Positions 26,991-30,226 of a stretch of DNA of 41,926 nucleotides are shown here, piece after piece (the first letter of the stretch is position 1; the number at the start of each line of letters is the position of its first letter). The translations under genes and the position numbers were made by a program. The notes under the pieces were generated by a model. The model was not told the DNA's origin, did not search any database, and worked only from the letters and a program-made list of their open reading frames with translations. Where the stretch lies: positions 1-41,926 of the IMG/VR virus record IMGVR_UViG_3300010160_000090; one strand, given 5' to 3'. Source of the stretch: a virus.

Positions 26991-27482
26991 TTAGTTTTCT
27001 TCTGCGCTGAAGTCATCTACTTCAGTAGAAACGTCGTCACAATCAACGTCATTGTGGCGTCCGCAATAATCAATGCTGATATCAAAGTCACCGTCATCGA
27101 TTTTTTCTTCGTCAAAGTCAAGTGGAACAGTTAGTTCTGCTTCTACGTTAACTGTGAACGAAACTGATATTGTTTTAGTTAGTTCTATATCAAGTTCTGC
27201 GGCAAGTTCTTTTAGTTCTTCTACTGACGCTGAATCGTTCTCCTTGATATGTTCCTTAAGAAACTCTTCTACTGTATTTGTAACTTCTCGCAAACGAGCG
27301 CGGTGTGTATTAGACGCTTGCTCTGTATACTCTAAACGCTTTTTGAGAGATTCGATTGTATTGAAGTGAATCACAAACTCATCTACAAGGTCGCCAAACG
27401 AATGGTCCTTGATAAATTCTTCTGCGATTTGTGCTGGTGTTTGTTCTACTACTATTTCTGTATTTGTTATATCTGTAGTCAT
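26991..27482 (-). CDS. Acidic coiled-coil protein downstream of ribozyme 2
   Basis: 163 residues. The middle is a coiled coil (ESLKKRLEYTEQASNTHR, REVTNTVEEFLKEHI), and the last 45 residues are very acidic (FDEEKIDDGDFDISID). It could imitate DNA or act as a dimeric inhibitor. An AAAGGGAAAA site precedes the ATG. Its 5' leader holds the stem I hairpin left after cleavage by the hammerhead ribozyme at 27.5 kb. Confidence 0.72.
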   Translation of the reverse strand: MTTDITNTEIVVEQTPAQIAEEFIKDHSFGDLVDEFVIHFNTIESLKKRLEYTEQASNTHRARLREVTNTVEEFLKEHIKENDSASVEELKELAAELDIELTKTISVSFTVNVEAELTVPLDFDEEKIDDGDFDISIDYCGRHNDVDCDDVSTEVDDFSAEEN

Positions 27483-27503
27483 TTTATTTTCCCTTTGTTA
27501 GTT

Positions 27504-27520
27504 CTGATGAGGCTCATCAG
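27504..27520 (-). promoter_or_regulatory. Palindrome masking the ribozyme 2 catalytic core
   Basis: CTGATGA (27504-27510) and TCATCAG (27514-27520) form a perfect 7 bp inverted repeat around GGC. On the minus strand the CUGAUGA core of ribozyme 2 can pair with this downstream copy. That hairpin would compete with the active fold. The other two ribozymes lack it. Confidence 0.75.
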
Positions 27521-27562
27521 CAGTACCGTTCAGTACTGGACTCCCTTACGGGAGTTTCGCCT
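27510..27562 (-). ncRNA. Type II hammerhead ribozyme 2
   Basis: Minus-strand order: AGGC (stem II), GAAA (27555-27558), stem III CTCCC/GGGAG with GTAA loop, cleavage site UC (27539-27540), stem I CAGTAC/GTACTG, core CTGATGA (27514-27520), GCCT closing stem II. Every conserved core base, including the G10.1-C11.1 pair, is present. Predicted cut is between 27539 and 27538. Stem II is the open helix, hence type II. It starts five bases past the stop of a 39-residue gene and lies upstream of the acidic coiled-coil gene. Confidence 0.92.
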
Positions 27563-27566
27563 TACT

Positions 27567-27686
27567 TTATTTTGCTTCTGTTTTATAGTCACACTTTGGA
27601 CATTGTTCGTATTTCTTCCAAGGAAGATTATCAAAATTAATAATCTTATTTGTATACATTTTCGTTCCGCATTGAGGACATTTCAT
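27567..27686 (-). CDS. 39-residue zinc-ribbon protein
   Basis: MKCPQCGTKMYTNKIIN, then LPWKKYEQCPKCDYKTEAK: a textbook CPxCG...CPKC zinc ribbon. GAGAAGGTG precedes the ATG at good distance. It follows the preceding stop by six bases. The hammerhead ribozyme 2 begins right after its stop, so the mRNA end would be set by the ribozyme. The function is unknown. Confidence 0.75.
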   Translation of the reverse strand: MKCPQCGTKMYTNKIINFDNLPWKKYEQCPKCDYKTEAK

Positions 27687-28704: not shown

Positions 28705-28757
28705 GAACTCGTCAGCAACCGCCGTTACGGTTGGACACCCTTTCGGGTGTTTCGTTC
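28705..28757 (-). ncRNA. Type II hammerhead ribozyme 1
   Basis: Minus-strand order: GAAC (stem II), GAAA (28750-28753), stem III CACCC/GGGTG with GAAA tetraloop, cleavage site UC (28734-28735), stem I CAACCG/CGGTTG, core CTGACGA (28709-28715), GTTC closing stem II. The fit to the hammerhead consensus is complete. The predicted cut is between 28734 and 28733. The element begins on the very next base after the TAA of the upstream gene and lies 27 bases before the next ATG. Confidence 0.93.
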
Positions 28758-29122: not shown

Positions 29123-29184
29123 CTCATCAGTAACGGTTCGCCTGTCCGTTAGACACCGTGCCTTTTAGTGACACGGTGTTTCGA
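29123..29184 (-). ncRNA. Type II hammerhead ribozyme 3
   Basis: Minus-strand order: C then GAAA (29179-29182), stem III CACCGTG/CACGGTG with an 11-base loop, cleavage site UC (29152-29153), stem I TAACGG/CCGTTA, core CTGATGA (29124-29130), then GA. Core bases are all present, but the closing stem II is only about two pairs, weaker than in the other copies. The predicted cut is between 29152 and 29151. It lies in the leader of the first early gene. Confidence 0.85.
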
Positions 29185-29612
29185 TATAAGGTTGATTTAT
29201 TTTCTAAGGCTGGTTCACCATATTCCATTAACTTTTATTTGCATTGCGCTAAGTCGTGAAGTGTGTATCGCTCGCCGTTTTGATTTCTCTAACGGGTCTT
29301 GAATATCTAGTGCCTAATTTGTTTGTAGTGGCTCCTCACCTCTACAAGTAACCGAACGTCGTGTAACAGTTCGGCTTGGCGTTTTGATATTGGTATCGCG
29401 CTTCTGACTTTAGGTACTTGGTACCGTGCGGTGCTTTATTTTGTTTGGAACCGTTACTTGTAAAAGTTATCCGTTTGTCTTTACCTAAACTTGCTGGTGA
29501 CTTGTGGGGTTTTTACTTTGTCGGCTGGTTACGTGTTGAGAACTTTCCAAGATTTACTTCTTGGATTCTCTTGCCTTCTCTATTTAATTTAATTAGATTT
29601 ACTTTCTATCAC

Positions 29613-29650
29613 CCGATTTAATTCCCTTGGGATTTAAATGATTAAATCGG
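29613..29650. repeat. Hairpin B with CCCTTGGGA loop
   Basis: CCGATTTAAT (29613-29622) pairs with ATTAAATCGG (29641-29650) over 10 bp. The loop contains TTCCCTTGGGA, which recurs in the hairpin 70 bases further on. The shared loop with different stems suggests conserved RNA structure or a paired protein-binding site. Confidence 0.6.
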
Positions 29651-29692
29651 TTCACTAGTTTTGTAAACTAATCTTTGGCTTTTTTCTCTTCT

Positions 29693-29721
29693 GGTTCGCT
29701 TCCCTTGGGAATACCCGAACC
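29693..29721. repeat. Hairpin A with CCCTTGGGA loop
   Basis: GGTTCG (29693-29698) pairs with CGAACC (29716-29721). Between them TTCCCTTGGGA (29700-29710) can form its own small stem. It has the same loop motif as hairpin B and the same orientation. Confidence 0.55.
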
Positions 29722-29743
29722 GCGAGTGCCATATTAATTTGTA

Positions 29744-29772
29744 GTATTAACATTACCCCTAAAGTGTTACAA
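29744..29772 (-). promoter_or_regulatory. Weak candidate leftward promoter
   Basis: Minus strand: TTGTAA (29767-29772), a 17-base spacer, then TAATAC (29744-29749) preceded by TG. This is a sigma70-like layout of modest quality in the right place to drive the early operon. Other promoters in this region cannot be excluded. Confidence 0.28.
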
Positions 29773-29976
29773 ATACCAATACCGTTTATACCCCTTATTA
29801 GGGCGAGCCGTGAGCCTCAGTAAAGGGGCATATAAGCCTGTATGAGCCTGATAGGGGCAGGAAGTAGGTTCTTAGACCCCCAGACCCTTACGGGCATAAA
29901 AAATCAAGCAAAACAGATTTTTTTTGTTAACCTTAAAAAATTAAACACGCGCACGTTAAGCACATAATAAATTTAA

Positions 29977-30007
29977 TTGCGTTAATACCGTGTAACTCAT
30001 TTACAAT
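29977..30007 (+). promoter_or_regulatory. Candidate promoter of a leaderless rightward gene
   Basis: TACAAT (30002-30007) lies exactly six bases before the ATG at 30014. Transcription would then start at or next to the A of the start codon, giving an mRNA without a leader. TTGCGT (29977-29982) is a possible -35 with a long 19-base spacer. No ribosome-binding sequence is present before the ATG, in line with leaderless translation, common in actinobacteria. Confidence 0.5.
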
Positions 30008-30013
30008 AGCGCT

Positions 30014-30226
30014 ATGGCTTATTCATCTGTGGAAATGCGTTGCGGTGGTTTGGTTATTGCCGTTGGTACTGAACTTGCTTATCCAGACGCTATGGACGAT
30101 TTATGTGCGCGCACATTAAATCTATTTCGTGAAGGTGCGGCTACAGCAAAAGAAAATGATATTGATATTTCTAATATGCGATTAATCACTACCGATTATG
30201 GTGATGAATTAGAAGATGATGACTAA
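30014..30226 (+). CDS. Only rightward gene; small hypothetical protein
   Basis: 70 residues: SSVEMRCGGLVIAVGTELAY, then DDLCARTLNLFREGAATAKE and a strongly acidic end (GDELEDDD). Separate promoter and opposite direction suggest a regulatory or early role. It converges on the leftward nuclease-like gene, and the two overlap by four bases at their 3' ends. No family is recognised. The codon-level pattern and the promoter fit support a real gene. Confidence 0.65.
   Translation: MAYSSVEMRCGGLVIAVGTELAYPDAMDDLCARTLNLFREGAATAKENDIDISNMRLITTDYGDELEDDD

Follow-up and report, generated by a model that had tools for sequence, protein, structure and literature searches.

A 41.9-kb stretch of viral DNA (IMG/VR record IMGVR_UViG_3300010160_000090, positions 1 to 41,926; hereafter the window) encodes a hammerhead ribozyme whose own downstream tail is complementary to its catalytic box. 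The ribozyme lies at 27562-27510 on the minus strand and is, as judged from its sequence, a structurally intact type II hammerhead. Its tail, here called the antibox, is predicted to form a hairpin with the box that removes both the catalytic core and stem II, and this hairpin appears to be maintained by selection beside an intact ribozyme. With moderate confidence, the element is read as a type II hammerhead with a conserved self-masking tail, which would make it bistable, braking cleavage at first and locking the product once cut. Antibox pairing, with covariation, recurs in about 100 other viral sequence fragments, and the pairing probably serves as a genuine brake or lock and did not arise as a chance palindrome.

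Antibox pairing, its conservation and its covariation

On the plus strand, positions 27504-27520 read CTGATGAGGCTCATCAG, a perfect 7-3-7 inverted repeat; the CTGATGA/TCATCAG palindrome reported there by the initial annotation is exact. Read on the minus strand, from 27520 to 27504, it becomes CUGAUGA-GCC-UCAUCAG. The first seven bases are the hammerhead catalytic box, and the complement does lie 3′ of the box in the transcript, as had been claimed. The full sense sequence (predicted cut marked by a slash) is AGGC-GAAA-CUCCC-GUAA-GGGAG-UC/CAGUACU-GAAC-GGUACUG-CUGAUGA-GCCU-CAUCAG, followed by AACUAACAAAGGGAAAAUAAA-AUG. The core elements GAAA, UH and CUGANGA are present in type II order, stems I and III are closed and stem II is open, a layout backed by compensatory changes. 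The ribozyme is placed between a stop codon and the ribosome-binding site of the next gene.

The pairing is kept in relatives. In contigs L003 and L070/L091, an antibox ribozyme precedes a homologue of the 163-aa gene that follows it in the window; here stem III has changed from CUCCC/GGGAG to CACCC/GGGUG and stem I is compensated at several pairs, with UCAUCAG unchanged. Contigs L299 and L257 carry the identical UCAUCAG tail on stems that have diverged further. The earlier proposal, in which an alternative hairpin formed by the palindrome can conceal the catalytic core, survives this check, and is strongly supported by conservation together with the covariation described below. Taken as a whole, that reading is partly supported: a kinetic or protein-controlled switch, its functional side, is possible. 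In cultured phages no antibox was found by short blastn queries, whose sensitivity is low for RNAs of this small size and variability; the Wentworth and Janus hammerheads have none.

Enrichment beyond chance was assessed in a scan of IMG/VR for a stem III signature that ignored the tail. At least 119 stretches yielded 59 distinct hammerheads with a short stem I (19 nt or less) and 84 with a longer one; these counts, and those from the spacing-4 scan below, are among the matches listed. An exact complement of CUGAN (5 nt) at offsets 2-11 after the box was scored as an antibox and compared with 500 tail shuffles. It was found in 11 of the 59 short-stem-I hammerheads (shuffles: mean 0.38, at most 3 in 500) and in just one of the 84 long-stem-I ones. 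Antibox offsets were 1 (8 cases, overlapping stem II), 4 (7), 5 (3) and two singles; the antibox almost always stands directly 3′ of stem II, with a gap of 0-1 nt.

Targeted IMG/VR scans kept TCAG fixed and allowed any base at N7 of CUGANGA and at the position just 5′ of TCAG (N′). This gave at least 120 stretches at a spacing of 4 and 73 at a spacing of 5. Among valid short-stem-I hammerheads at spacing 4 (99 contigs), N7:N′ was U-A in 63 cases, C-G in 48 and U-U in 2, never U-G or C-A, and thus Watson-Crick in 111 of 113. At spacing 5 the combinations were U-A (19), C-G (11), U-G (3) and A-U (1), and N′ was preceded in 26 of 34 by a C that pairs with G8. The mutual information between N7 and N′ is 0.98 bits, that of the next position 0.33, and the rule persists within different stem II sequence types. 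The sequences are related and the counts therefore not independent; in answer to this, 79 of 80 sequence clusters are Watson-Crick at N7:N′ (Fisher p 1e-21), and U-A and C-G versions coexist on single contigs (L081, L220, L273). When 72 predicted 3′ products are aligned without gaps, every row forms all six hairpin pairs, with U-A (43) or C-G (29) at the N7 pair and G-C (68) or G-U (4) at the sixth; all six pairs of stem I covary beside the masking hairpin.

The controls lack this pattern. Reversing the tail to GACT at this position left 25 stretches in the entire collection, against at least 120 for TCAG, and the 15 short-stem-I hammerheads among them (T with A 7, C with A 6) show no association with N7. 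TCAG at spacing 8 gave 34 stretches, with no association in the 11 short-stem-I hammerheads that have that spacing. In GTDB genomes the pattern occurred in five hammerheads, all U-A, and pairing was random in 39 chance matches outside ribozymes. An overlapping class at spacing 1 (CUGAY-GAG-RUCAG) has a weaker association (U-A 30, C-G 47, U-G 22, C-A 9, C-U 7, others 7) and is not counted as proof of the antibox. Two other patterns were set aside: one with a fixed downstream AGGG was too specific and had no matches, and many matches to one anchored on AAGGG were chance non-ribozymes, reused as a small negative control. Pairing of the antibox with loop I rather than with the box was also rejected; loops of the short class are not generally complementary to it, and N′ tracks N7.

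Two mutually exclusive folds and how they may be used

The masking hairpin and stem II exclude each other because the hairpin uses the box and loops out the 3′ strand of stem II; stems I and III are left untouched. Both alternative helices are conserved and have one strand in common, as is expected of a switch between mutually exclusive folds. In nearest-neighbour calculations for spacing 4 (n=112), the masking hairpin averages -7.1 kcal/mol and stem II closure -4.6 kcal/mol; 109 of the 112 minimum free energy folds contain the masking helix. For the window precursor, the masked fold is put at -23.9 kcal/mol and the ribozyme fold at -20.1 kcal/mol. In the window's 3′ product, the innermost of the seven box-antibox pairs has a probability of 0.76, and the six others reach about 0.99. 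The hairpin would extend into stem I if the base after the antibox paired with the final base of that stem; this combination is depleted (21 cases, 38.4 expected), which fits a stem I that stays intact and stacks on the masking hairpin.

The proposed mechanism has few parts. The CUGAN(G) box of the ribozyme has its complement in a tail directly 3′ of stem II (N′UCAG or CN′UCAG). Before cleavage, the RNA would exchange between an active fold with stem II closed and a masked fold with box and antibox paired, which may slow cleavage or make it conditional. After cleavage, stem I and the masking hairpin of the 3′ product would form two 5′ hairpins stacked end to end, and a product locked in this way would be unable to rejoin the upstream fragment. 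The polycistronic phage mRNA would in this way undergo timed, irreversible processing, past one gene's stop codon and ahead of the ribosome-binding site that follows.

Several observations weigh against this self-masking scheme. Most short-stem-I hammerheads lack a full antibox, so the class can do without it. Of the six hairpin pairs, four are invariant and uninformative, the catalytic box being fixed and TCAG imposed by the scan, and because these four never vary the covariation rests on one position plus G8:C/U. The nearest-neighbour model contains no hammerhead tertiary contacts, and with these the active fold could win. Finally, an apparent co-tuning of stem II strength and masking strength was rejected: the GC content of stem II is associated with N7 also in hammerheads without an antibox, and co-tuning of the two folds is unsupported. 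In antibox-free short-stem-I type II hammerheads, N7 = C goes with a fully G+C stem II.

A regulated switch, in which a ribosome, a protein or a metabolite selects the fold, is a stronger form of the self-masking scheme and overlaps with it; taken by itself, it is possible but doubtful. Its appeal lies in two mutually exclusive conserved folds, which are typical of switches, and in the surroundings of antibox ribozymes. The median distance from the end of the upstream stop codon to the first base of stem II is 0, and a median of 21-23 nt separates the antibox from the start codon that follows. Since the stop abuts stem II, a terminating ribosome is expected to cover the 5′ strand of stem II and an initiating one to approach the antibox; the fold could, for example, be chosen by a ribosome terminating at the abutting stop or by a 30S subunit bound at the start codon, some 21 nt beyond the antibox. 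This arrangement invites a translation-controlled model, but the compact spacing of phage genes explains it equally well, and tight spacing may simply reflect short intergenic regions. Moreover, no Rfam match and no aptamer-like conserved domain were noticed beyond the ribozyme, and neither a ligand domain nor a regulator protein was found.

A rather unlikely alternative confines the antibox to the lock. Here, the ribozyme would fold and cut first, during transcription, and the antibox would act solely on the 3′ product by blocking religation, with the double 5′ hairpin protecting the mRNA. The order of synthesis fits, as the antibox is transcribed last; so do the high pair probability of a product that folds into two abutting hairpins, the depleted extension into stem I, and the GAAA core that, on inspection, accompanies antibox hairpins after stem I on the ribozyme strand. 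The antibox, however, begins 0-1 nt past stem II, which leaves almost no time for cutting first, and a masking helix predicted to be more stable than stem II closure should compete before cleavage too.

It is very improbable that the inverted repeat acts at the level of DNA, either as an operator for a dyad-binding protein or as a repeat kept perfect by quasi-palindrome mutation, with the RNA pairing incidental. A DNA dyad would likewise covary and avoid G-U, and N7:N′ has no G-U in the 113 cases at spacing 4. Against this, the spacing between the 5-nt arms varies (3, 6 or 7 nt), the catalytic box invariably supplies one arm, the sixth pair tolerates G-U, and long-stem-I hammerheads hardly ever have the repeat. 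That the palindrome arose by chance in one ribozyme can practically be discounted: the full 7-nt version is present in only one of the three window ribozymes, but conservation, enrichment and covariation contradict chance.

The window and its hammerheads

PHROG matches to terminase, portal, tape measure, Dit, minor tail proteins and RecT mark the window as a tailed phage, with almost all genes on the minus strand. Three intergenic type II hammerheads are found on this strand (Table 1), in the transcription order 29183-29124, 28757-28705 and 27562-27510. Two were given by a pattern scan (28753-28709 and 27558-27514). The one at 29183-29124 escaped the regular-expression scans and came from reading the sequence; it has an 11-nt stem III loop, a stem II of only 2 bp (UC/GA), and a loop I GGC able to pair with a tail GCC, as in the pseudoknot type. 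The initial annotation held that the other copies lack the palindrome. This stands for the copy at 29124, and needs qualifying for that at 28709, which keeps a 4-bp CUGA/UCAG remnant overlapping stem II.

Table 1. Positions of the antibox ribozyme, its surroundings and the two other hammerheads in the window.
Feature	Positions	Strand	Remarks
Stem II 5′ strand AGGC	27559..27562	minus	4 nt past the stop (27569-27567) of the upstream small open reading frame
Core GAAA	27555..27558	minus	Pattern match
Stem III hairpin CUCCC-GUAA-GGGAG	27541..27554	minus	Compensatory CACCC/GGGUG in L003, L070
UC cleavage dinucleotide	27539..27540	minus	Hammerhead consensus; predicted cut between 27539 and 27538
Stem I hairpin CAGUACU-GAAC-GGUACUG	27521..27538	minus	Predicted 5′ end of the cleavage product
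Catalytic box CUGAUGA	27514..27520	minus	Doubles as 5′ arm of the masking hairpin
Stem II 3′ strand GCCU	27510..27513	minus	GCC becomes the loop of the masking hairpin; U common to the antibox
Antibox UCAUCAG	27504..27510	minus	3′ arm of the masking hairpin
Likely Shine-Dalgarno AAAGGG of downstream gene	27491..27496	minus	From sequence
Downstream gene, 163 aa, no PHROG match	26991..27482	minus	Homologue after antibox ribozyme in L003, L070/L091
Second short-stem-I type II hammerhead, CUGACGA box	28705..28757	minus	UCAG overlaps stem II; competing hairpin of just 4 bp
Third type II hammerhead, long-stem-I type	29124..29183	minus	Without antibox

Rfam release 15 listed no hammerhead family for the window, either at the gathering score or at E up to 5; a match to an Rfam model is a detection aid for hammerheads, not a defining trait. 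With all three window hammerheads unlisted, Rfam-based annotation will miss this class. The CTGATGA motif occurs at 15 sites in the window, where 2.9 are expected from shuffles, and only three of the 15 belong to ribozymes, the reverse strand of the antibox included. Elsewhere, nine type II hammerheads are packed into about 4 kb of one viral contig (L093, 2913-6754, plus strand), nearly all directly upstream of a likely Shine-Dalgarno sequence and start codon; a single one of the nine carries an antibox, and a partial one (CGUCA).

Other features surround the window ribozymes. A 39-aa open reading frame (27567-27686, minus), below the listed size, ends just before the antibox ribozyme and has CxxC motifs (MKCPQCG...CPKCD), likely those of a zinc ribbon. 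The minus-strand genes starting at 27482 and 29093, after two of the ribozymes, have a common leader and first codons (GGGAAAAyAAAAUGACUACA), which suggests that this leader module was copied or recombined. Some 0.8 kb (29190-30010) contain no open reading frame of at least 80 aa and may hold a regulatory RNA or a transcription start; beyond them, a short plus-strand open reading frame (about 30015-30226) is opposed to the minus-strand genes.

Relation to known systems

Riboswitch expression platforms and transcription attenuators work through two mutually exclusive helices with one strand in common. The antibox ribozyme resembles them in its strand-sharing helices, but no ligand domain was found here, and no terminator: the sequence after the tail is AACUAACAAAGGG, and the U-tract of an intrinsic terminator or attenuator is absent after the antibox hairpin.

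Type II hammerheads, their phage settings and a pseudoknot between loop I and the tail have been published (Perreault et al. 2011, PMC3088659), the pseudoknot being present in the majority of type II hammerheads, not in all; on regulated cleavage, that work only speculates. The ribozymes described here are like those of Perreault et al. in their core, in their permutation (stems I and III closed, stem II open) and in their intergenic phage locations. The difference lies in the tail. In the published type II hammerheads, pairing with loop I stabilises the active fold, whereas in the short-stem-I subset described here the tail's partner is the box, and the active fold would be destabilised. Among the matches listed, the potential for the pseudoknot is found in 69 of the 84 long-stem-I hammerheads (shuffled 16.4) and in 7 of the 59 short-stem-I ones (shuffled mean 4.0). 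The pseudoknot is not characteristic of the short-stem-I class; it is frequent in the family and not required, so that type II membership stands. The tail after stem II thus seems to serve opposite roles, as a stabilising pseudoknot partner in the long-stem-I class and as a masking antibox in the short-stem-I class.

Viroid hammerheads are likewise inactive in their most stable fold, with the domains often opposite each other in the rod (PMC7461866). In viroids and viroid-like satellite RNAs, however, masking is achieved by a long rod with a ribozyme of opposite polarity, in a circular RNA; here it would be achieved by a tail of 5-7 nt in a linear mRNA. In artificial ribozymes, short competing helices exchange rapidly in vivo, and downstream competitors can inhibit cleavage (PMC2817708). 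The AltH1 constructs (Mahen et al. 2010, PMC2817708) are similar in that an essential helix meets competition from an adjacent complementary insert and cleavage can fall, but they are artificial chimeras studied in vitro and in yeast, while the antibox is natural and conserved. No description of the antibox was found in the open-access literature, subscription papers being outside the search; type II hammerheads and their tail pseudoknot are described there.

The antibox bears on the question of what type II phage hammerheads, described since 2011, are for and whether they are regulated in nature. Tentatively, regulated hammerheads may be widespread in environmental phages: the choice between antibox pairing, which keeps the mRNA joined, and cutting, after which the antibox would lock the product, would fall to the translation of neighbouring genes or to a factor from phage or host. 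A conserved pairing that must switch off the core argues, on evolutionary grounds, against purely constitutive cleavage in at least some of these ribozymes.
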